Notes: a model not told the origin generated them from the sequence alone. Shown: positions 15,859 through 29,650, counted from the first letter of the stretch. The stretch: DNA of 64,000 bases from Aporhodopirellula rubra (GCF_014192335.1 NZ_JACHXU010000021.1:1-64000); one strand, 5' to 3'. Translations and numbers: made by a program.

Positions 15859-18033
15859 ATGATGAGCGAGTCCCAAACGGATCCCGAACATCCACAGGAA
15901 CCTCGAGACAAACGGTCGTCGAGTCGGGAGGGAAATCCGCCTGCAACCAAAACGCTTTCGGACCGTCTTGCGCGTTTCAAATGGCTCGGGCGAACGGTCA
16001 CCCATGCGTCGGTGATCCTGTTGGTATTCATCGGTGGAATCGCATTAATCGGCGTGGCCCAGCGGCTCGATTGGATTCAACGCAGTGGTGAAGTTGCATC
16101 CGGCGGTGCGTCGCACGTTCATGAAGGCGAGACCATCTACACTTGCCCGATGCACCCACAAATTCGGCAGAACGAACCCGGCGACTGTCCGATTTGCGGA
16201 ATGAAATTGGTTCCAACGTCCACCAGTGCGAAAGCCAATCCGACAGGCGCAACCGACGATCGCTATCTCTGTCCGATGATGTGCACTCCTCCGTCGAGCG
16301 AACCGGGTCGCTGTCCGGTCTGTGCGATGGAACTAGTCAAATCAACAGGCGGCGGTGGAGGCGATGGTGTGTCCGTCACCATCGAACCAGTGGCCCGCCG
16401 TTTGATCGGAATCCAAACCGCCAAAGCAAAACAAGGTCCGGTCACGCAAACCATTCGTACCATCGGATCAATCAGCTACGACGAAAGCAAACTCGCCACC
16501 ATCTCCGCCTACGTCGGCGGCCGCATCGAAAAACTCTACGCGAACTACGTCGGTGTCCCTGTCGAGAAAGACGACGACCTGGCTCTGATTTACAGCCCGG
16601 ATCTTTATTCCGCACAGGTCGAGTTCCTGACCGCGCAGTCCGGCGGCGGATTGAAGCGTTTGGGTGGTTCCTCCGATTTCCAAAAACTCGCGAAACAGAA
16701 ACTCATTGAACTCGGATTCACCGACGACCAAGTCGCCAACCTGCGTTCACGCGGCAAAGCCGAGAGCCGCATGCGTCTGCGTTCTCCCATCAAGGGAACC
16801 GTTATCGATAAGTTTGCCGTCGAGGGTGACTACCTCAAAACAGGCGACGAGGTCTACCGAATCGCGGACTTGTCGACGGTCTGGTTGATGCTCGATCTGT
16901 ATCCCGACGATGCTTCCCGGATCCGATTCGGACAACAAGTGAAGGCCGAGGTTTCGTCAACACCGGGTCGCGTCCACACCGGTCGAGTGGCATTCATCGA
17001 TCCAACTGTGAACGAAAAAACCCGAACCGTTCGCGTCCGCGTTGAGATGCTGAACACCGACGGCAAACTGCGGCCAGGCGACTATGCCACCGCCCGCATT
17101 GAGGTTCCCGCGATTCGTCAAGACATCCTTTACGATCCGTCGCTCGCGGGTAAATACATCAGCCCCATGCATCCGCAAATCATTCGCAACCAACCTGGTG
17201 AGTGCCCGATTTGTGGAATGGATTTGATCCCAACCTCCCAACTCGGATTCGCCGACGCACCGCTTCCACAGCAAAACGTTGTCACGGTTCCACGAGACAC
17301 CGTGCTGATGACAGGCGACACGAGCGTCGTGTACGTCGAAACCGAACCGGGGCGATTCGAGATCCGACGAGTCAGCGTCGGCCCGATGACGGATGATCGC
17401 GCCGTGATCATCGAGGGCATTACGGCCGGAGAAACGATAGCGACCCACGGAAATTTCCTAATCGATTCGCAAATGCAACTTGCGGGCAACCCGTCGCTGA
17501 TGGACCCACGCAAAGCCTCGAGTTATCCACCGGGTCCGCTCGAATTGTCCGACATCCTAACAACAGTCCTCTCGGGGCAATCGGGCGAACTGTTTGACAA
17601 CGCCTACGCGGCCTATTTTGAAATTCAAAAAACGCTCGCCTCGGATCGTGCTCCCGATGCCAGTGTTGTCGGCGTTCTCCGTGATTCGCTCACTCAACTA
17701 TCGTCGCAGCCTGATTTGCCCAAACGAGCATTCAGCCACGTGCAACGTGCTCAACAATCGTTGGAACGCATGAACAATTCGCTCGAGCGAACACGTGAAG
17801 GTTTCCGCGTTCTCAGCCACGCCCTGTTACGCACCGCTGCGATCGTTCGAGGACCTCAAACGGCCGACAAGCTGTACCACATGTTTTGCCCGATGGTGCC
17901 CGGTGGCGGCGGTGACTGGATGCAACGCGACAGCGAACTCATCAATCCCTACTGGGGCAGCGAAATGCTGTCCTGCGGCGAAGTAGTCGATGACATGTCG
18001 ATCGCACCTCTGCTCGAAAGCCAGAGGAAATAG
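15859..18033 (+). CDS. CusB-like RND periplasmic adaptor with three heavy-metal-binding domains and DUF3347 tail
   Basis: 724-residue membrane fusion protein. ATG at 15859 with GTGAGG just upstream. One TM helix at about 48-68 (HASVILLVFIGGIALIGV). Three short metal-binding knuckles are visible: YTCPMHPQI...CPICGMKL (about 93-118), YLCPMMCTPP...CPVCAMEL (about 135-160) and ISPMHPQI...CPICGMDL (about 432-458). The barrel-sandwich/hairpin core lies between knuckles two and three (GGRIEKLYANYVGVPVEK, GTVIDKFAVEGDYL). The C-terminal 160 residues resemble DUF3347 (MFCPMVPGGGGDWMQ, INPYWGSEMLSCGEV). It would bridge the pump and the TolC-like duct while capturing Cu(I)/Ag(I). The gap to the pump gene is two bases. 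Confidence 0.94.
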   Translation: MMSESQTDPEHPQEPRDKRSSSREGNPPATKTLSDRLARFKWLGRTVTHASVILLVFIGGIALIGVAQRLDWIQRSGEVASGGASHVHEGETIYTCPMHPQIRQNEPGDCPICGMKLVPTSTSAKANPTGATDDRYLCPMMCTPPSSEPGRCPVCAMELVKSTGGGGGDGVSVTIEPVARRLIGIQTAKAKQGPVTQTIRTIGSISYDESKLATISAYVGGRIEKLYANYVGVPVEKDDDLALIYSPDLYSAQVEFLTAQSGGGLKRLGGSSDFQKLAKQKLIELGFTDDQVANLRSRGKAESRMRLRSPIKGTVIDKFAVEGDYLKTGDEVYRIADLSTVWLMLDLYPDDASRIRFGQQVKAEVSSTPGRVHTGRVAFIDPTVNEKTRTVRVRVEMLNTDGKLRPGDYATARIEVPAIRQDILYDPSLAGKYISPMHPQIIRNQPGECPICGMDLIPTSQLGFADAPLPQQNVVTVPRDTVLMTGDTSVVYVETEPGRFEIRRVSVGPMTDDRAVIIEGITAGETIATHGNFLIDSQMQLAGNPSLMDPRKASSYPPGPLELSDILTTVLSGQSGELFDNAYAAYFEIQKTLASDRAPDASVVGVLRDSLTQLSSQPDLPKRAFSHVQRAQQSLERMNNSLERTREGFRVLSHALLRTAAIVRGPQTADKLYHMFCPMVPGGGGDWMQRDSELINPYWGSEMLSCGEVVDDMSIAPLLESQRK

Positions 18034-18035
18034 CG

Positions 18036-21000
18036 ATGCTCGGTGCCGTCATCAAATTCTGCGTTCGCGAACCGTGGTTGGTCGTGCTGCTGTCGGTCGG
18101 ACTCAGTGCATTCGGCTGGCACAGCTACAACACGATACCGATCGATGCGATTCCCAACATCGGCGAAAACCAAGTCATCGTATTGACGCCCTGGCCCGGT
18201 CGGTCTCCCAAAGACATCGAAGACCAAGTCACATACCCACTGAGTGTTTCGCTGTCGGCGGTACCAGGGGCGAAATCGGTACGTGGAAAGAGCATGTTCG
18301 GATACAGCTTCGTTCAGGTAACGTTCGAAGACAACATCGACTTCTACTGGGCCCGCAGCCGAGTCAGCGAGCAACTCGGAACCGCCGCTTCCCAGTTGCC
18401 CGAAGGCGTTGTGCCCCAACTCGGTCCCGATGCTACCGGTCTCGGCCAAGTGTTCTATTACGTGCTCGTGCCGCCGAAAGAAGGCATGAATCTTTCGGAC
18501 CTGCGAACGATGCAGGATTTCGTCATCAAGTACGACCTGCAAGCCGTCGAGGGTGTCAGCGAAGTCGCATCCATCGGTGGCTACGTCCGTCAATATCAGA
18601 TCGAGGTGGCCCCCGACAAACTTCGATTTCATGGCATCCCCTTAGACCAAGTCGTCGCGTCGATTCGCGGCAGTAACGTCGACGTCGGGGCAAAGACGGT
18701 GGAAACCGGTGGAATGGAATTCATCGTTCGAGGGAAAGGATTTTTGGGCAGCGACGGAGATACCGCCAAGGCAATTCGAGATATCGAACAATCTGTCATC
18801 GTGCAGCGTGACGGTGTGCCGATTCGCGTCCGTGACGTCGCCGCAGTGCAGCTCGGACCTGACTTTCGACGCGGTGCCCTCGACTACAACGGTGCCGAGG
18901 CGGTCGGCGGCGTGGTGGTGATGCGATACGGAGAGAACCCGCGTGCCGTCATCGAGCGGGTGAAATCAAAGATCGCCCAAATCGAACCCGCATTGAAGGG
19001 CGTGACAATCAAAGGAATTTACGACCGCACGGGATTGATCGACGAAACGGTATCAACGCTTTCGAGCGCCCTTCGTGACGAAATCATCATTACCGCAGTC
19101 GTGATCTTGCTGTTCCTCCTACACATTCGGAGTAGTTTCATTGTTGCGATCACGCTGCCGGTCGCCGTGCTATTGGCCTTCGTGGCGATGAACCTCTTCG
19201 GTGTCGGAGCCAACATCATGTCGCTCGCAGGCATCGCGATCGCCATCGGCACAATGGTCGACATGGCCATCATCGTCAGCGAAAACATCTATCAGCATCT
19301 AGCGGAATGGGAAAACGAGCCCGAGCGAGATCGCGACCGAGCCGACGTCATCTATGAGGCCGCGACCGAGGTTGCCCCGGCCGTCGTCACCGCGGTCACC
19401 ACCACGATCGTCAGCTTCCTTCCCGTATTCTTTTTGACGGGACGCGACTACAAGCTGTTCGCGCCGCTGGCGATGACCAAGACGTTCGCCATCTCAGCGG
19501 CACTCATTGCCGCAGTGACGATCGTTCCCACCCTCTGCCGATTGATGCTTCGCAGTGCCATACACGAGAAAAAAACAGCGATGGCGGCCGCGTTCGCGGG
19601 GGCATTCATTATCGGCGGCACCTCGTTCTTTCTATGGGGACATCGGGTCGCCGCGGCCTACGGTGTTCCGATGTGGGTGGTCACCATGGCAGCCGCGTTG
19701 TTCGGATTTTTCCTCGGATGGATGCTCGCCCGTGAGCGAGTTCGCCCGATCGAAGAAAACTTCGTCAGCCGCGCCATTATCTGGGGATACCGTCCGACGC
19801 TGTCGCTGTTCCTGCGACACAAGGCAGGTTTCTTGGTGTTGCCGGTTTCGATCATCGTGCTCGGTTTCGGTGGATGGTTCGGGTTGCCCGCGATCATGGC
19901 TCCTGTCGAACGGGCGGCCGCGAAAGTCGGTGTTCGCATGAATGATCTCCCAGGTTACGTCGGTGCCAAACATCTTTTCACAGGACTGCAAACCGATGAC
20001 TGGATTGCGTTAGATGAGGGCAGTTGGTTCTACATGCCGACGCTGTATCCGGCCGCCAGTTTCAGCCAAGCGATGCAAGTGCTGCAAACGCAAGACGTAC
20101 TGATCAGCCAGATCCCCGAGGTCAAAGACGTGCTCGGAAAAATCGGACGCATCGATTCGGCACTCGACCCAGCGCCCGCTGCGATGATCGAAACTTACGT
20201 GATGTTAAAACCACGCGATCAATGGCGATCGGGGGTCACCGCGCGGGACGTTTGGGATGAAATCAATCGGGTGGCGACTCTGCCGGGCGTCACCCCCGCT
20301 TCTCCGCTGCAGCCCATCGAAGGCCGAGTGGTCATGCTGCAGAGCGGCATCAAAGCACCGATGGCGATCCGCATTTATGGTGACGATTTACAACAACTCG
20401 CCGATGCAGCGATTCAAGTATCGAATCAGTTGAAAAAGTCTACGTACGTTAACCCGGGCACCGTCAACCCCGACATCGTTCTCGGCAAACCTTACCTCGA
20501 ATTTTCCGTTGATCGCGAAGCCGCATCACGCTACGGGATGTCCGCGCAAATGGTGAATCAAGTCATCGAAACAGCATTGGGCGGTATGAACTTGATCAAG
20601 ACGGTCGAAGGACGCGAACGTTACCCGGTCCGGTTGCGGTACAACCGCGACCTCCGTGAACGCATCGAACAACTCGACCGGCTTCCCGTTGTCACACATT
20701 CAGGCGCAGTCGTGCCCCTGGGTGAACTCGCCACACTCGAAACCACCTGGGGCCCCGGTGCGATCAACAGTGAGAACGCGCGGTTGATCGCTCACGTGTC
20801 GTTCGCCAGTAACGGGGCAACGGGAGACATCGAAACCGTCTCGGCGATCGAGCAGGCACTGTTCGACGCACAGAAATTGCCCGAAGGAAATGCCAATCGA
20901 CTATCGCTACCACCAGGCTATTCCCTCGAAGCCGTTGGTAGCTTTCGCAACCAGATCGAAGCCAACAATCGCCTGATGTGGCTCGTCCCGTTGGTCATGC

Positions 21001-21542
21001 TGATTAACCTGCTGGTCATCTATCTGCAGTTCCGTCACTTGCCAATCACATTGGCTGTTTTCGCCGGTATCCCCGTCGCCTTCGGTGGCGGCATGATTTT
21101 GCTCGCGATCGACGGCGCCGAAATGAATACCGCGATCTGGGTCGGCTTCATCGCATTGTTCGGCATTGCGGTCGATGATGGTGTGGTGATCGCCACCTAC
21201 CTCGATCAAGTCTTCACGCGTCGCCGGCTAAAAACCATTGCAGACATTCGATCCGCCACGATCGACGCTGGCGTGCGACGCATTCGTCCGTGCTTAATGA
21301 CCACCGCGACAACGCTGGTTGCACTCGTACCTGTCTTGCTGGCAACCGGACGCGGTGCCGACGTTGCACGAGCGATGGCATTGCCCGTGTTCGGAGGCAT
21401 GGCCGTCGAAATCGTCACGCTGTTCGTCGTGCCAGTGGTCTATTGCGGATTCAAAGAATTCAAAATGAACCTCGGCCTGTCAGATCACCACTGGGCGGGC
21501 ATCGAAGAAACACCGAACGAGGAAAGATCTCATGCAAACTAA
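18036..21542 (+). CDS. CusA-like heavy-metal RND efflux pump
   Basis: 1168-residue inner-membrane proton/metal antiporter of the HME-RND class. Family landmarks: start helix with IDAIPNIGENQVIV, pore-domain motifs, TM4 charge pattern AIAIGTMVDMAIIVSENIYQH and the second-half counterpart GIAVDDGVVIATYLDQVF. The periplasmic segment VVMLQSGIKAPMAIRIYG matches the CusA form 'MLxTGIKxP', which carries one of the methionines of the copper triad, favouring Cu(I)/Ag(I) over zinc. It is longer than typical CusA (about 1050). The extra length is an insertion at about 509-570 with two hydrophobic segments, plus extra residues before the DEGSWFYMPT motif. Co-transcribed with the adaptor gene (2-base gap). 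Confidence 0.94.
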   Translation: MLGAVIKFCVREPWLVVLLSVGLSAFGWHSYNTIPIDAIPNIGENQVIVLTPWPGRSPKDIEDQVTYPLSVSLSAVPGAKSVRGKSMFGYSFVQVTFEDNIDFYWARSRVSEQLGTAASQLPEGVVPQLGPDATGLGQVFYYVLVPPKEGMNLSDLRTMQDFVIKYDLQAVEGVSEVASIGGYVRQYQIEVAPDKLRFHGIPLDQVVASIRGSNVDVGAKTVETGGMEFIVRGKGFLGSDGDTAKAIRDIEQSVIVQRDGVPIRVRDVAAVQLGPDFRRGALDYNGAEAVGGVVVMRYGENPRAVIERVKSKIAQIEPALKGVTIKGIYDRTGLIDETVSTLSSALRDEIIITAVVILLFLLHIRSSFIVAITLPVAVLLAFVAMNLFGVGANIMSLAGIAIAIGTMVDMAIIVSENIYQHLAEWENEPERDRDRADVIYEAATEVAPAVVTAVTTTIVSFLPVFFLTGRDYKLFAPLAMTKTFAISAALIAAVTIVPTLCRLMLRSAIHEKKTAMAAAFAGAFIIGGTSFFLWGHRVAAAYGVPMWVVTMAAALFGFFLGWMLARERVRPIEENFVSRAIIWGYRPTLSLFLRHKAGFLVLPVSIIVLGFGGWFGLPAIMAPVERAAAKVGVRMNDLPGYVGAKHLFTGLQTDDWIALDEGSWFYMPTLYPAASFSQAMQVLQTQDVLISQIPEVKDVLGKIGRIDSALDPAPAAMIETYVMLKPRDQWRSGVTARDVWDEINRVATLPGVTPASPLQPIEGRVVMLQSGIKAPMAIRIYGDDLQQLADAAIQVSNQLKKSTYVNPGTVNPDIVLGKPYLEFSVDREAASRYGMSAQMVNQVIETALGGMNLIKTVEGRERYPVRLRYNRDLRERIEQLDRLPVVTHSGAVVPLGELATLETTWGPGAINSENARLIAHVSFASNGATGDIETVSAIEQALFDAQKLPEGNANRLSLPPGYSLEAVGSFRNQIEANNRLMWLVPLVMLINLLVIYLQFRHLPITLAVFAGIPVAFGGGMILLAIDGAEMNTAIWVGFIALFGIAVDDGVVIATYLDQVFTRRRLKTIADIRSATIDAGVRRIRPCLMTTATTLVALVPVLLATGRGADVARAMALPVFGGMAVEIVTLFVVPVVYCGFKEFKMNLGLSDHHWAGIEETPNEERSHAN

Positions 21543-21705
21543 GCCATTTCAAATAAACAGGTCCCCTCTCACAGTAGCCGGATTCGGCAAGGTCATCTCG
21601 ATCTGCTGCCCCGGTGATGCCATGACGTTCGCCACTGATCCCAACCACTGCCTCGACATCTTTTACTCACGCAGCTTTCACGCACCGACGCTGCGTCGAC
21701 AATGA
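21532..21705 (+). CDS. Small ORF overlapping the end of the pump gene (uncertain)
   Basis: A 57-codon frame starts with ATG at 21532, inside the last codons of the pump gene, behind a GAGGAAAG (21519-21526) at good distance. It reads MQTKPFQINRSPLTVAGFGK through a Cys-Cys pair (ISICCPGDAM) to TGA at 21703-21705. The overlap and ribosome site fit translational coupling, as seen for small accessory genes. I recognise no family and codon use is unremarkable, so it may be chance. Confidence 0.35.
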   Translation: MQTKPFQINRSPLTVAGFGKVISICCPGDAMTFATDPNHCLDIFYSRSFHAPTLRRQ

Positions 21706-21771
21706 CCTTCGCGGGGGTGGTGTCTTGGCGGATTTGCGAACGCAATGATGTCACCACGCCACCCCTGCCTG

Positions 21772-22092
21772 TCATTTTCCGTATTTGCGAAAGATCGACA
21801 TAATCTCTTCTAACTTCGTGTCACGATCCGCACTGTCTCCATTCTCCATCGCGTCGCGAACACAACGTTTGAGATGCTGTTCGAGCACCAGTTCTCCGAC
21901 GCGATTGAGAGCCCCCGTGGCAGCCGATATCTGCATCAGAATATCAACGCAATACGCGTCTTCATCGACCATACGACGTACCGCGTCGACCTGGCCGTTA
22001 ACGCGACTGAGTCGATGAACGAGCTTCTTTTTCTCGTCGTCTGAGAGCATTCGATGAACTTTGAACCGGGCAAGACTTGAGGGATGGGACAT
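21772..22092 (-). CDS. csoR: CsoR-type copper-sensing transcriptional repressor
   Basis: 106 residues from 22092 (MSHPSSLARF); all-helical DUF156/CsoR-FrmR family, seen as LVHRLSRVNGQVDAVRRMV. The Cu(I) ligands are present with exact family spacing: Cys48 (DAYCVDIL), His73 and Cys77 (EQHLKRC), the same 25- and 4-residue gaps as Cys36/His61/Cys65 of M. tuberculosis CsoR. As a tetramer it binds GC-rich palindromes and leaves DNA on Cu(I) binding. Two matching palindromes occur at 14752-14768 and 22314-22330, so the targets are probably the efflux genes and the copper-storage gene. It lies convergent to the pump operon and divergent from the storage gene. Confidence 0.93.
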   Translation of the reverse strand: MSHPSSLARFKVHRMLSDDEKKKLVHRLSRVNGQVDAVRRMVDEDAYCVDILMQISAATGALNRVGELVLEQHLKRCVRDAMENGDSADRDTKLEEIMSIFRKYGK

Positions 22093-22313
22093 TTTACCCC
22101 GCAACCGCTCTCCCGGTTAGACCAGCATCGAGCTTGTCCGGTCTCTCGATCGATGACGAACCAACCTGCATGGTCGCTAGCCCACCAAACGATTTGCTGT
22201 CGGCAAGTTCCTGCTCGCAAAATCCGCCCTCAAAATTCAGATCAATGAAATTTTGCCGCGATCGCGGACGGTTTCGGCATTCAAATCCATTCCGAAATAT
22301 TGCCAAACTCAAC

Positions 22314-22330
22314 ATACCCCATGCTGGTAT
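22314..22330. promoter_or_regulatory. Candidate CsoR operator, divergent promoter region 2
   Basis: ATACCCCATGCTGGTAT has outer half-sites ATACC/GGTAT in perfect dyad and the CCCCA core shared with the site at 14752-14768. It sits 70 bases before the copper-storage gene start and 220 bases from the csoR start, in the 307-base divergent region 22093-22399. Likely controls the storage gene and perhaps csoR itself. Confidence 0.62.
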
Positions 22331-22399
22331 GCAAGTTGCAAATGCAAAGGAACAGCGGCAACGGGGCCGCGCCAAAAACTTCCACAAGGAGATTCAAAA

Positions 22400-22732
22400 A
22401 TGAGCACATCAACCGCATCCAAACAAGACTGCATTCAAAACTGCCAAGTGTGCGAAACCACGCTCAATAACATGCTGACCGAAACCTGCCTCGCAGAAGG
22501 TGGCGAACACGTCGAACAAAACCATGTCAAGCTAATGCTCGACTGCGTCGCCGCCTGCAATGCATGCGTCGGATTCATGAGCCGCAACAGTGATTACCAC
22601 GCCCATTACTGCAACGCCTGCGCAGAGATTTGCAAAGCATGTGCAGAAAGTTGTGAGAAAGTCGGCGGCATGGACGAATGTGTCGAGTGCTGCCGCAAGT
22701 GCGAAGAGAGTTGCAGTGCCATGGCCGCATAA
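22400..22732 (+). CDS. Cys-rich four-helix-bundle copper storage protein (DUF326, Csp-like)
   Basis: 110 residues from the ATG at 22400 with AAGGA about 10 bases upstream. There are 17 Cys, most spaced as C-x3-C or C-x2-C along helices (CIQNCQVC, CVAACNAC, CNACAEICKACAESC, CVECCRKCEESC), the hallmark of DUF326/Csp proteins that line the core of a four-helix bundle with thiolates and store many Cu(I) ions. No signal peptide is seen, so it should be cytosolic like Csp3. A candidate CsoR operator is upstream. It completes the island by storing cytosolic copper that the RND pump does not reach. Confidence 0.92.
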   Translation: MSTSTASKQDCIQNCQVCETTLNNMLTETCLAEGGEHVEQNHVKLMLDCVAACNACVGFMSRNSDYHAHYCNACAEICKACAESCEKVGGMDECVECCRKCEESCSAMAA

Positions 22733-24158: not shown

Positions 24159-25292
24159 TCAAACCCGTTCGAGCTTCACGGGCGCCGTTCGCTCGCCATT
24201 CCACTGACAGACATAGACGTTTTCATCCTCGTCGATGCAAACATCATGGCCGTGGTAAAACGTCTTCGCCTCGTCTTGTTGAACCCGCTGCAGGACGCCG
24301 TTTTCGTAAACGGGTTGCTCGCCACCAGGACATGACACGACCCGGTCATCATTGTCCATCACCATCGTGAACCCCGACTGATAAAGCCACGGTTTCTCAA
24401 CCTTGACTTCGGAAAAACCGTGGCTCCAACAAACACCGGCATAGACGTGTTCGCCATGAATCACCGGTCGGCAGATCTGCAAGTTCGCTAACGGTACGGT
24501 CTTCAACCATTCCCCATCGAGTGAAAAGTACTTGAACGCCTTTTGCCCACGACTGGTTACGATGAGCCTCGGGTTGGCCGAATCTCGGTTGTCAAACGCG
24601 ACCCCGTGTGCGTTGGCCAAGTTGTAGTTTTTATCTTTGTTATCGCGACCGCCAAATTTCTGAATGAACTTTCCGTGTTGGTCGTACCGCAGGATGAAGT
24701 CCGAACCGTATCCGTCGGCGATGTAGATGTCGCCGTTGGGAGCAACCGCCGTCTCAGTGGGCTGAAACAACATTTCCGGCGTGTAGGCTCCAACCGTCAT
24801 GGGATGGCTGATGGTAAAGATCATTCTTCCGTCAATGGTCATCTTGGCGACATATCCGTTCTGCCGGACCATGGTAACACCGTCATCGAGGCTCCGCGCC
24901 CAACCGCTCTCGCTGACAAACAACACGTCATCGCCGCCCTCATTAACCAAGGTCAAACCATGACCACCGGGCCAATACGTGCCCCAACTATTGAGGATCT
25001 TTCCGGACTTGTCGAACACGATGATGTTGTTCCGCGGGTCGTCACCGACCATCACTAATCGGCCCTTCGAATCCTGCACCATCTCGTGGCAGTTATCGAG
25101 ATGGATTCGGAACGGATTCACCTGCGTCCACTCCTTGTGGACTCGGTAACGAAAATCTCCGTGCCCCACCAATCCGTCATCCCCTGGCGCGTCACCTGAC
25201 GCCGCATGCACCAACGGCAAAGTGTGAGCGAACATGGCGGTAGCCGCAGATGCGACAGCCCCCGTCTTAAGAAAAGAACGACGGTCGGACAT
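24159..25292 (-). CDS. Tat-exported NHL-repeat-like beta-propeller protein
   Basis: 377 residues from 25292; this start gives a twin-arginine leader MSDRRSFLKTGAV with a hydrophobic run ending at LVHAAS. The mature part is built of repeated strand blocks with DxxG-type turns (KGRLVMVGDDPRNNIIVFDK, SGKILNSWGTYWPGGHGLTL, VAPNGDIYIADGYGSDFILR, HGKFIQKFGGRDNKD), typical of six-bladed NHL/SMP-30-like propellers. Folded export through Tat suggests a bound cofactor or metal, but none is identifiable. Many planctomycetes carry paralogues next to carbohydrate or oxidoreductase genes. Function unknown. Confidence 0.85.
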   Translation of the reverse strand: MSDRRSFLKTGAVASAATAMFAHTLPLVHAASGDAPGDDGLVGHGDFRYRVHKEWTQVNPFRIHLDNCHEMVQDSKGRLVMVGDDPRNNIIVFDKSGKILNSWGTYWPGGHGLTLVNEGGDDVLFVSESGWARSLDDGVTMVRQNGYVAKMTIDGRMIFTISHPMTVGAYTPEMLFQPTETAVAPNGDIYIADGYGSDFILRYDQHGKFIQKFGGRDNKDKNYNLANAHGVAFDNRDSANPRLIVTSRGQKAFKYFSLDGEWLKTVPLANLQICRPVIHGEHVYAGVCWSHGFSEVKVEKPWLYQSGFTMVMDNDDRVVSCPGGEQPVYENGVLQRVQQDEAKTFYHGHDVCIDEDENVYVCQWNGERTAPVKLERV

Positions 25293-25750
25293 GGCGGCAC
25301 TCGGTAAAAAAAGCGGAAGCAAAACGACTGAAGAAAACGACTCGGCAATATAACACAGTCTCGTTCAGACAGCCCCAACACGGTTTCATGACCTGGGGCA
25401 GCGCCGACGATGAAAGCAGCCTGCCTTTTGCCTGCATTGATTGTTCCCACTCGAAATTTGCAAAGAACCCAAAGCCGCCACCTCGGGAGGCCCATTTCCG
25501 CAACAACTGTCAGCAAATAATCCCCGCGTCTCTTCAGAGAAGTTCGCCGAAGACGATGCGACCGCACGACGCACCGAACCCTTCAACGAGGATTTTCACG
25601 TGTTAAAACCGGTCCGTTTTCAATCGGCACGCCTTGATCCACGGGGGAATCATGCTGCGAAACCACCTTCCCGGCTCCGCACTCGTATCGAACTTGCCTC
25701 CATTACGATACAGTTCAACGTCTCAACACCTTCTAGTGGCCGAGGAAATA
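25293..25750. other. Divergent intergenic region upstream of small protein/helicase pair
   Basis: 458 bases between divergent genes. The frames present are short, overlapping and without ribosome sites except the GAGGA at 25742-25746 that serves the gene starting at 25751. No repeats, RNA or operator dyads were noticed. Confidence 0.5.
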
Positions 25751-26056
25751 ATGGCAAACGTCGATCAAGCACCCCCGCAGAAAGACGCCCCGTTGGGACA
25801 GTCTGACCACACGGAAAAAATCAAATCGCAGGTTCTCGAGAAAATTGGCAGGCCACCTCGCCTGCATCGTGTCGAGGTTTGTCAGCACCACAACGGCAAT
25901 TATCGAGTTAACATTTGGGAGCAGCAGGAAGCGCAGGGCGACTTCGCGTTATCGACGCGTGTGCATATTCTGTCGTCATATTACTTGAAGGTATCGGATG
26001 AGGGCGAGATTCTGAACAGCAACCCGCCACTGACGAAACTCCGCTTCCCAGCGTAG
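25751..26056 (+). CDS. Small protein of unknown function upstream of double helicase
   Basis: 101 residues from ATG 25751, preceded by GAGGA at 25742-25746. The first 30 residues are hydrophilic; the rest looks like a compact alpha/beta fold: HRVEVCQHHNGNYRVNIWEQ, STRVHILSSYYLKVSDEGEI, NSNPPLTKLRF. No signal peptide or membrane segment. I do not recognise the family. It is 198 bases upstream of the double-helicase gene in the same direction, with no terminator visible between, so the two may be co-transcribed. Confidence 0.7.
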   Translation: MANVDQAPPQKDAPLGQSDHTEKIKSQVLEKIGRPPRLHRVEVCQHHNGNYRVNIWEQQEAQGDFALSTRVHILSSYYLKVSDEGEILNSNPPLTKLRFPA

Positions 26057-26254
26057 CCACGCAAAGCGGACTCGATTACTCGACCCAAACAATCCCGCCC
26101 CTGGCCCCAAACCATGGGGCGTCCGGTCGTATGGCACTGTTCGGTCACGGGCCCCTTGCTCCGCGTAACCGCAAACGCGCCGCATGCGATCACGCCAAGG
26201 GTCTCTCTGAAAGCAGAATCTTTCATCGGGAAATCCCAGACAGGCGATAAAAAA

Positions 26255-29200
26255 ATGGACGACGCCCTCCGCGAGTTCGATTACGACCGCCAAGGCAAAA
26301 CAAACAGCGACACCTTCAAACTGGCACGGTTTGAATCAGACCTTGGATTGCCAACCGGCGACAGCACAAAACTCAACGATGCTGCGACGGCTGTACGCCA
26401 AGAGTACCGTGACAGCTCTCGCTGGAAACGCTTAGCCTGCCATCGAGTCAGCATCTTTGCCGAACGGGACCGTGGCACCATCTACGTCGTTCACGTCGGT
26501 GCGTCAGTTGAGTTTGACTGGACTTGGGAAGGAGCCCAAGCGTTCCGCCCGACATCCCTCGACGATGTAAAACACGAATCAGATCAAGCCAACGCCCCCA
26601 TCGACGAGGACGAGGTCCTTTGGTCCGGTGAAATTGTCGAAGTGGACGAACGCAAGGGATGCCTATTCATCGCGCTGAACGATCCCGAGATGACGCCCAT
26701 GAACGGGCCGTTCTTTGTCCGTCCCTTCGAGTTCATGTCGGTTTTGGACTCGATCTACAACGGTGTCGAGTTCGAGGAGTTGCGTGAGCACCTGTCCTCA
26801 CGATTAATCGCTAGCGAGGGTGATGTGCATCCGAGGATGACGGAACCGTGCAATGCGAGTTTGCCACTCCTACGTGCTTGGTGGCAACATTCGTGGAACA
26901 TTCTCTGGGGTCCTCCCGGCACCGGCAAAACGTGGACGACGGGCCAACAAATCGCCGCGATCATGCAAGACACGAGTGAGCGAGTCCTCGTGGTCTCGAC
27001 GACCAATCGGGCAACGGATGCCGTCGGTATATCAATTGGCGAAGCGGCAAAGAGACACTGCCCTGATCAACTCGATAACGACGCGCTGTTGCGAATCGGC
27101 AAAGGAGCGTCGCTTCAGACGTTCATCAAACGAGAACTCGCTCGAATGCTGAGGGGAACGGAGTCGGAAACTCTGTCACAAATCGATGGACTCGCGCAGC
27201 AACTCCAACTCCTTCAGTCGCCTGAAGAAAAAGCCTTCACACGGAAACAAATCAACGCCTTAAGAGCGTCGGGCAACGATGAAAACAACCGCATCTTTGT
27301 CGATGCTCAGCGACGCGTCGTTATTTCAACGGCATTCAAAGCGATAAGCTATCTGAAGACCGAAACCATCCGCACCATGGTGGAGAATGGCGAAGCACCG
27401 TTCACGACCATCTTCATCGATGAAGCGGGTTTGATCTCGCGTGCTGCAGTGGCAGCGTTATCACTTCTCGCATCCAAACGTGTCGTCCTGGTTGGCGATT
27501 CAAAACAGTTGGCGCCGATCAGTCGGATTTCCCGTATCCTGCCAACTCGCCAGCAAACATGGTTGGCGAGCAGTGGGTTGAGCCATCTCGAAGACACGGA
27601 AAACATTCCCGTAGCGGTTCATTTCCTGTCTGAGCAACGTCGAATGCACCCGGACGTTTGCAAAGTTGTCTCGAGTTACCAGTACAACGGCGTTTTAACA
27701 ACAGCCATCGACCGGGCCGAACAAACCTCCACGCTGTCGCCATTTATCGCTGATCAATCGAGAGCCATTTGGTACGTCCTTGATGAAGAGGATGCGAGTC
27801 TCGCTTCAATTCGTGCCGCCAGGGGCCCCGGCAATCGAAGCTGGGTTCGCGGAGTCACGCGATCGGTGCTGCAAAAATTGTTTTTGGATACCGATTTGCG
27901 TTCCGCAAACGGATTATTCATCTCGCCTTTCAAAGCCCAGGCTCAAGAGATTGGGGAACTCCTGGCGACCTGGGAAATGCCAAATTGGGAAGCCTCCACC
28001 GTCCACAGCCAACAAGGATCCGAAGCCGACTTCGTTATTTTCGATACGGTCAATGCCGGAAGTGGAACATGGCAAATCCCCGAGTGGAAAAGACTCGTCA
28101 ACGTAGCCCTCAGCCGGGCACGCGAGGCAGTCATTGTTCTGGCAAGCCGCAGCGAAATGGACGAGCCATATCTTCGACCACTGAAACAACACATGACCGC
28201 AGCGTTTCTCGTCAACGACGGAACGGGATTCGTTTGGCAAATAGCAAATCAACGTGATACTTCAATAACTCTCAAAGCGGCTGAACAGACAGCGAGCTAC
28301 CGAGAAAAAGCAGCCTGTCGAATGGGAGATCAATTTCACCATCGAAAAGGAATGAAACCAATCCTCTCGCAGGAACAACAACGCCTGACCAACCTCGAAC
28401 TCGATGGCAAACCTCGGTTGGTCCGTGGCGTCGCGGGTAGCGGAAAGTCGGTGGTCCTTTGCAATTGGCTCGCCAAAACGGCAAAACGAATGCAGTTTGA
28501 AAAAGACGCCCGCATTTGGGCCGTCTATGCCAACCGAAGTCTGCAAAAGCTACTGCGGGAGTCAATCGAATCGGCGTGGAGGAATCTGAACGAGGGAGAT
28601 TTATTCGGCGATCCTGATTTCCCGTGGGAGAAGGTATCACTACTTCATGTAAAGGATGTTTTGGCGGGCCTGCTACCTAGCGTCGACATGTCGATTGAAT
28701 CCATCGGGTTTGATTACGACCGAGCTGCAGAGGAATTCCTCAACCGCCAAGACGTAAATGAGTTGATCCCGCGCTGTTCGGCTCTATTCATTGACGAAGC
28801 TCAAGACATGGGACCGGCAACCTTGCGATTGCTTTTGTCGATGGTTGAACAAACCGACGAAAGTGATTCCAACAGCCGTTCGGCACACATTTTCTATGAC
28901 AATGCCCAAAACGTTTACCACACCCGGACACCGAAGTGGTCTGAATTTGGTCTCGACATGCGAGGCCGATCCACCATCATGCGAGAGAGCTTTCGCTCGA
29001 CAACGCCGATCACGGAACTCGCAGTGAACGTGTTAAGCCGATTGTCGGAAACCAGCAAACGGCAAGACCAACAAGAGTTGCTCCAGCTCGGACTTCTGGA
29101 AGCGACGACACGCAACAATGAAAATTGGTTGCGTGTTCGGTACAACCAAATCGACGGCCCTAAGCCGATCTATCACAGCTTCGACAACCGCGATCGCGAA

Positions 29201-29650
29201 ATGGCGTCCATTGCGAGTCACTTGCGATATCTAATTCAGAAAGACGGAATCTCACCAACCGACATTTGCATCCTCTACAACGGACGTGTCCAAGACATCC
29301 TTCATTGCAAACTCGGACCAGCCCTTGCCGAGATCGGCGTCGAACTCTCATTCCAAAAGAATCGCTCCTTCGAAAGACAACCCAATACGCTCATCGCCAC
29401 CACGCCGCACTCCTTCAAAGGTTACGAATCCGAAGTCGTGGTGATCCCTTGCGTTGACAACTACGTCGCTTCCGAAGGAAAAATTTTAGAAAATAGTTTG
29501 TACGTCGCGATGACGCGGGCTCGGTCGCTACTCGCAATCTACGGACTCAACCGGGGATCGACCGCCAGTCGAAAGATCGGCGACACGATTGAAAAATGCG
29601 TTTCAATCCAGAATGCTCGCCCGATAATTCACGACATGAGCGACGATTAA
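26255..29650 (+). CDS. Giant protein with two SF1 helicase modules (Upf1-like + UvrD-like)
   Basis: 1131 residues from ATG 26255 (MDDALREFDYDRQGKT); an ATG at 26114 would add 47 low-quality residues. Residues 1-210 match nothing I recognise. Module 1 is an SF1B Upf1/DNA2-type helicase: Walker A GPPGTGKTWT (about 217), Walker B TIFIDEAGLIS (about 385), motif III VVLVGDSKQLAPIS (about 410), motif V VHSQQGSEADFVIFD (about 580) and motif VI NVALSRAREAVIVLAS. Module 2 is UvrD-like: Walker A RGVAGSGKSVV (about 722), ALFIDEAQDMGP (about 843), SFRSTTPI, HSFKGYESEVVVIP (about 1049) and YVAMTRARSLLAIYG. Both engines look catalytically complete. No nuclease motif is obvious. Nucleic-acid remodelling, perhaps defence; partner could be the 101-residue protein upstream. 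Confidence 0.88.
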   Translation: MDDALREFDYDRQGKTNSDTFKLARFESDLGLPTGDSTKLNDAATAVRQEYRDSSRWKRLACHRVSIFAERDRGTIYVVHVGASVEFDWTWEGAQAFRPTSLDDVKHESDQANAPIDEDEVLWSGEIVEVDERKGCLFIALNDPEMTPMNGPFFVRPFEFMSVLDSIYNGVEFEELREHLSSRLIASEGDVHPRMTEPCNASLPLLRAWWQHSWNILWGPPGTGKTWTTGQQIAAIMQDTSERVLVVSTTNRATDAVGISIGEAAKRHCPDQLDNDALLRIGKGASLQTFIKRELARMLRGTESETLSQIDGLAQQLQLLQSPEEKAFTRKQINALRASGNDENNRIFVDAQRRVVISTAFKAISYLKTETIRTMVENGEAPFTTIFIDEAGLISRAAVAALSLLASKRVVLVGDSKQLAPISRISRILPTRQQTWLASSGLSHLEDTENIPVAVHFLSEQRRMHPDVCKVVSSYQYNGVLTTAIDRAEQTSTLSPFIADQSRAIWYVLDEEDASLASIRAARGPGNRSWVRGVTRSVLQKLFLDTDLRSANGLFISPFKAQAQEIGELLATWEMPNWEASTVHSQQGSEADFVIFDTVNAGSGTWQIPEWKRLVNVALSRAREAVIVLASRSEMDEPYLRPLKQHMTAAFLVNDGTGFVWQIANQRDTSITLKAAEQTASYREKAACRMGDQFHHRKGMKPILSQEQQRLTNLELDGKPRLVRGVAGSGKSVVLCNWLAKTAKRMQFEKDARIWAVYANRSLQKLLRESIESAWRNLNEGDLFGDPDFPWEKVSLLHVKDVLAGLLPSVDMSIESIGFDYDRAAEEFLNRQDVNELIPRCSALFIDEAQDMGPATLRLLLSMVEQTDESDSNSRSAHIFYDNAQNVYHTRTPKWSEFGLDMRGRSTIMRESFRSTTPITELAVNVLSRLSETSKRQDQQELLQLGLLEATTRNNENWLRVRYNQIDGPKPIYHSFDNRDREMASIASHLRYLIQKDGISPTDICILYNGRVQDILHCKLGPALAEIGVELSFQKNRSFERQPNTLIATTPHSFKGYESEVVVIPCVDNYVASEGKILENSLYVAMTRARSLLAIYGLNRGSTASRKIGDTIEKCVSIQNARPIIHDMSDD

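Follow-up and report, generated by a model that had tools for sequence, protein, structure and literature searches.

A stand-alone dual SF1 helicase of Aporhodopirellula rubra, probably part of bacterial immunity as predicted from the neighbourhoods of its relatives

Is a bacterial protein that carries two complete superfamily 1 (SF1) helicase motors a piece of immunity in its own right, or one half of a two-gene system? The question is raised by a stretch of 64,000 nucleotides from Aporhodopirellula rubra (GCF_014192335.1 NZ_JACHXU010000021.1:1-64000), called the window below, where a gene for such a helicase of 1131 residues lies downstream of a small gene for a protein of 101 residues. The window helicase probably serves bacterial immunity on its own, a prediction made from context since the relatives of the helicase often sit among anti-virus genes. 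The fuller description, namely a solo, horizontally acquired and DNA-directed dual motor of the defence-island type, is given about an even chance. The features of the helicase gene are:

26255..29650, + strand: dual SF1 helicase, 1131 aa (open reading frame, Pfam, alignment, structure model)
26351..26884, + strand: stalk helix and 1B beta-barrel of the Upf1-like module, residues 33-210 (model, superposition)
26909..28123, + strand: SF1B motor motifs I to VI, residues 219-623 (37 relatives; Pfam AAA_11/AAA_12)
28427..29524, + strand: SF1A (UvrD-like) motor motifs I to VI, residues 725-1090, without 2B (alignment, superposition)

The open reading frame of the helicase runs from an ATG at 26255 to a stop at 29650. 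Taken mechanically it opens earlier, at 26114 (1178 aa); the start at 26255 is preferred because the relatives align from there, many of them with MDDE or MDDP at that place. The layout comprises an Upf1-like SF1B module (residues ~33-655), a linker (~667-687) and a UvrD-like SF1A module (~702-1121), and two SF1 helicase domain sets were identified by Pfam in the one protein. The first module contains GPPGTGKT (219-226), DEAG (389-392), GDSKQ (414-418), QRR (461-463), HSQQGSE (584-590) and NVALSRAR (616-623); the second contains GVAGSGKS (725-732), DEAQD (847-851), DNAQN (882-886), ESFR (911-914), SFKGYESE (1053-1060) and YVAMTRAR (1083-1090). In 37 of 37 aligned relatives no change is seen in the lysines of Walker A, in either DEA box or in the arginines of motif VI; the set is formed by Planctomycetota and by records labelled Chloroflexota, Riflebacteria, Nitrospirae, Myxococcales and proteobacterium. 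Both motif sets are kept in all of these, which is far beyond chance, and a protein with one dead motor is ruled out. The initial annotation, which had described two full SF1 modules with Walker A, Walker B and motif VI intact in each and no nuclease motif, is borne out in these respects: the reading frame was confirmed, the motifs are unchanged in the 37 relatives, none of which has the dead module that it had named as a sign against its proposal, and no nuclease profile of Pfam, PADLOC or NCBIfam matched the protein.

The AlphaFold2 model of the helicase, built on relatives, has a mean predicted local distance difference test (pLDDT) of 82 and a predicted template modelling score (pTM) of 0.57, the parts of low confidence being residues 1-18 and the linker. 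In the first module a helix (37-54) is followed by strands (58-156); residues ~33-655 superpose on Upf1 of human (residues 295-912) and yeast and on residues 3-645 of Ighmbp2, with 514-524 residues aligned, and the Upf1-like stalk helix and 1B beta-barrel map to residues 37-156. Because of this superposition the 210 N-terminal residues, unmatched in the initial annotation, are assigned to the first motor, where 33-210 form the stalk and the 1B barrel, and a new N-terminal domain is ruled out. The second module (701-1118) superposes on UvrD (4c2t) with a Z of 28.7 and 353 of 650 UvrD residues aligned. It lacks the 2B auxiliary domain of canonical UvrD/Rep, motifs IV and V being spaced by ~140 residues.

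These comparisons bear also on the substrate. RNA-directed immunity or surveillance, where the motors would act on phage mRNA or stalled translation and not on DNA, is favoured by the closest solved relatives of the first module in sequence and fold, which include Upf1, Ighmbp2 and nidovirus nsp13, and by the second module, which exceeds the Pfam cut-off for SLFN-g3_helicase and superposes (702-1121) on SLFN11 (Z 24.9), with SLFN14 ranking high as well. This alternative is nevertheless judged unlikely: the best superposition of the second module is a DNA helicase, UvrD, and the relatives sit with DNA-targeting systems, bacteriophage exclusion (BREX) and restriction-modification, neither point being decisive.

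The two halves of the protein are described in Pfam, NCBIfam, PHROGs and PADLOC, whereas the whole two-motor architecture was found in none of them. The first module presents the features of the SF1B Upf1-like class, namely motifs I-VI with a DEAG box, a stalk and a 1B barrel. Its residues 33-655 can be aligned to the core of Upf1 (2gk6, 2xzo; 514-523 residues), stalk and barrel included; the difference from Upf1/IGHMBP2 is the fusion to a second motor. By score the protein belongs to no described housekeeping family, membership of which would have counted against the initial annotation, TIGR00376 (the IGHMBP2 family) giving 77.3 bits against a curated cut-off of 348.9. The second module presents the motifs I-VI and the 1A/2A fold of the SF1A UvrD-like class; it shares all SF1A motifs with UvrD/Rep/PcrA but has ~430 residues and no 2B, and it superposes on SLFN11 of Schlafen group 3 but the AlbA nuclease core of Schlafen was not found by Pfam. 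The likeness to RecBCD, AddAB and AdnAB is one of analogy, in that a single machine combines an SF1A motor (RecB) with an SF1B motor (RecD); the dual helicase is not a member, being a nuclease-free single chain whose SF1B motor is Upf1-like and not RecD-like.

Among defence systems, the MkoA model of Mokosh (PADLOC) matches the first module with an E of 6.6e-41 but only over positions 627-1074 of 1112, the helicase part, and the window locus lacks the partner genes, so that it is not assigned to Mokosh. The GajB models of Gabija match parts of either module and, the matches being partial, membership is not assigned; no GajA-like gene was seen among the reading frames around the window copy, which were read by eye. 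The helicases of BREX, Shango and Hma (BrxHI, SngC and HmaA) are of DEAD/SNF2 type, unlike the dual SF1 helicase, and their models were not among the matches listed by PADLOC for the window protein or for the homologue at locus L035. Homologues of the dual helicase do lie inside a BREX operon (L035), beside Shango (L124) and beside HmaC (L041). The genes brxC, pglX and pglZ are present around the L035 homologue and none of them was recognized by eye around the window copy, which is not classed as BREX.

A two-motor SF1 fusion in defence was not found described in the full-text literature, a weak negative as only open-licence texts were covered. A text search of a 2026 survey of BREX (PMC12839542) found no UvrD, Upf1, DnaJ, tandem helicase or dual helicase, and the list of SF1/SF2 helicase-containing defence systems in the Hachiman paper (PMC12278908) names no such fusion. 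Judged by sequence, the protein is an SF1 helicase putatively associated with defence, and its architecture of two motors is one for which a description was not found.

The association with defence comes from the neighbourhoods of the relatives. In Anaerolinea (L035) the order, in one direction, is brxC, helicase, pglX, a PD-Lambda-2-like gene and pglZ. The helicase adjoins Shango SngABC in genome G787 (L124), the phospholipase and cyclase of a cyclic oligonucleotide-based antiphage signalling system (CBASS) in G816 (L122), a ThsB-type TIR protein and a DrmD-like helicase in G704 (L120), HmaC at L041 and an Mrr nuclease at L032, where a 3'-5' exonuclease is also a neighbour. An OLD-like ATPase is directly upstream at L009, with an HsdM-type gene also near. 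Other genes near the helicase are a type III restriction-modification pair (L129, G004), a DrmD-like gene (L128), a PDC-S02 gene (L089), a GajB-like helicase with a type III methylase (L123) and an NsnA-like gene (L121).

For a matched control, 14 helicase loci were set against 14 places chosen at random in their own genomes; one random place, which overlapped a helicase, was shifted by 1 Mb. The nearest proteins of 150-1300 aa were compared after removal of the helicase itself and of kinases, the latter from both sets because generic kinase matches dominated a first PADLOC scan of the neighbours. With a threshold of E<=1e-30, 79 PADLOC families are matched by the 106 neighbours and none by the 110 control proteins; per locus, defence matches were identified at 8 of 14 helicase loci versus 0 of 14 control places (Fisher p ~0.001), with the related loci partly dependent and a single control region per genome. 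The contrast is strong despite the small control. The neighbourhood survey suggested by the initial annotation gives enrichment near defence genes, and its guess of defence, made from architecture, gains independent support from the relatives with their empty control; the window copy itself lies outside any visible island.

The helicase is rare. It was identified in 4 of the 12 other congeneric genomes, in at least 8 of 392 Planctomycetota genomes (a whole-phylum sample) and in at least one of 400 genomes of the phylum to which the Anaerolinea record belongs, that of the query itself; the counts of the large samples are lower bounds, with two candidates scored per genome. This distribution bears on a further alternative, an accessory repair or recombination helicase that travels on genomic islands with the defence genes as fellow passengers. 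Repair typically employs SF1 motors, the neighbourhood of the window copy is an ordinary chromosomal one and the L032 homologue has its exonuclease; however, the gene is too rare and patchy for housekeeping repair, the contrast with the control regions is strong and one homologue is placed inside a BREX operon, and a repair role is considered rather improbable.

The DNA similarity among most of the congeneric helicase loci is limited to the gene, the surroundings being dissimilar, and G704 contains two copies (L120 and L121) 81 kb apart with differing defence-gene neighbourhoods. In a FastTree phylogeny the copies of G002, G007 and the Neorhodopirellula locus L010 (identical to G010) cluster with that of the window, and the congener G004 falls in a separate clade with other genera, one of them of another order (G749). 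The simplest reading of these sequence comparisons is a patchy single gene that moves horizontally, although ancient paralogy may be an alternative to the transfer. A phage or plasmid gene was also considered and rejected, the helicase being unmatched in phages or plasmids; among the matches listed, viral contigs gave short UvrD-like ones only, which is weak evidence.

The two-gene proposal of the initial annotation concerned the gene directly upstream:

25751..26056, + strand: genus-level gene of 101 aa, outside the system, adjoining the helicase in this genome only (homologue survey)

This is a real gene, ~65-77% conserved in relatives; 8 of the 12 other congeneric genomes have it, as does one genome of the family. 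A system of the helicase and the 101-aa protein was suggested by their common strand and by the gap of 198 bp where, as the initial annotation had stated, a simple scan found no + strand terminator. No homologue of the small gene was found at 51 helicase loci with flanks of up to 8 kb, however; both genes are present but unlinked in G002, G004, G007 and G025, and the small gene occurs without helicase in five of nine relatives. Its usual downstream neighbour in the genus is an S1-domain gene: in G001 it keeps the upstream neighbour of the window (gene 24159-25322) and is followed by an S1-domain-like gene, a segment that other congeners share downstream, several of them as one syntenic block. 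The S1-domain-like gene sits on a different contig in the window genome, and the adjacency to the helicase was seen in this genome alone. Helicases without the small gene were what the initial annotation itself had named as refuting the pair, and the 101-aa gene is ruled out as a partner, its adjacency recurring in no relative examined; a two-gene system retains hardly any probability. The 101-aa protein gave no significant match in a sequence search against solved structures.

Other flanking genes recur in a subset of the relatives. An XRE regulator is directly upstream of the helicase at L129, L128, L052, L045, L123 and L088 and is broken at L028 and L018; an alpha/beta hydrolase is directly downstream, sometimes overlapping, at L009, L013, L042, L049, L027 and L129, truncated at L128 and a remnant at L088. 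Some relatives thus show erosion: at L088, which holds the copy of G002 (81% identity with the window protein), the XRE gene is intact beside the remnant hydrolase. The window locus has neither flank and its genome has no match to the hydrolase. Neighbour clustering for an obligate third gene gave mostly common planctomycete families, and both XRE and hydrolase are ruled out in that role as they recur in a subset only. A hydrolase without helicase was identified in 16 genomes out of 60, both near XRE and in ordinary surroundings; being frequent across the order and often unconnected with the helicase, it is not called a partner.

An arrangement of XRE, variable cargo and alpha/beta hydrolase ('MKILFLHGWHS..GGVKPT') recurs in Pirellulales (L129:7807-12974, L128, L123, L088, L009 and L013), also without helicase (L215, L219 and L220), and looks like a cassette with exchangeable cargo. 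The working unit might on this basis be XRE, helicase and hydrolase together, with the window copy a remnant that lost both flanks. The recurrence of the two flanks, that of the closely similar G002 copy included, speaks for such a unit, but both are missing at most of 65 loci, the hydrolase is widespread without helicase and the window helicase itself is free of decay, which leaves it quite improbable.

Some relatives carry additional domains. The L035 homologue (L035:3709-7641) has an added N-terminal DnaJ domain (PF00226) and that of L055 a weak Prok-RING-like match at the N-terminus; such variable add-ons suggest recruitment into different complexes. Many relatives have ~95 extra C-terminal residues (L025:11301-11606), missing from the window clade, with W-L, E-P, G, P and G as invariants and an alpha-beta-beta-beta-alpha-beta order in the model. 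The fold matches of this domain are weak and mostly to PD-(D/E)XK nucleases (VRR_NUC, the best with a Z of 4.7, Bax1 and Hjc), a sequence search against solved structures gave no significant match and no conserved D...ExK signature was found in the alignment. A nuclease is rejected on these grounds, with fold matches below a trustworthy Z and the catalytic signature not conserved. To read the domain as a degenerate nuclease-like one is a guess from the model.

To one side of the window copy lie copper-efflux-like genes, to the other esterase, glycosidase-like and planctomycete DUF genes. The esterase, the sole window neighbour scanned with PADLOC, gave no match. An ordinary copper/heavy-metal cluster occupies window positions 15859-22732 and contains, as read from the sequence, CusB-like and CusA-like efflux genes, a CsoR-like regulator (21772-22104, - strand) and a cysteine-rich Csp/DUF326-like protein.

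Several points weigh against a DNA-directed immunity motor. No evident defence gene was seen near the window helicase when the sequences were read by eye, and none was identified near the helicase at L090, L091, L125, L126 and L127. Location in defence islands is guilt by association, as repair genes and passengers are found in such islands too. Polarity and the choice of DNA or RNA as substrate are taken from the families only, and at a pTM of 0.57 the relative placing and orientation of the two motors are uncertain.

Upf1-like SF1B enzymes run 5'->3' and UvrD-like SF1A enzymes run 3'->5'. By analogy the two motors probably have opposite polarities on two strands, so that both could pull the strands of a duplex or fork in one overall direction. 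The helicase would load onto phage or plasmid DNA during replication, at its ends, forks or gaps, and be driven one way along the duplex or fork by motors on opposite strands, with a logic resembling RecD and RecB in RecBCD but in a single nuclease-free polypeptide. It would then unwind or strip the invading DNA and replication would be aborted; alternatively, the exposed single strands could feed other nucleases, whether from the host or from defence systems nearby. The helicase of some relatives would have become part of such systems, as between brxC and pglX in the BREX operon, and the window copy most likely acts alone. The most specific form of the proposal, an undescribed single-protein bipolar SF1B and SF1A DNA motor that attacks invader forks or ends alone and is recruited by BREX, Hma-like and XRE-hydrolase cassettes, is tentative and, as a whole, somewhat doubtful.

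If the prediction is true, bacterial immunity gains a stand-alone dual-motor protein, and with it a compact single-chain test case for cooperating motors of opposite polarity, best known from the multi-subunit RecBCD class. A BREX operon, moreover, can carry a dual SF1 motor, a type that the BREX survey (PMC12839542) does not mention under the terms searched.

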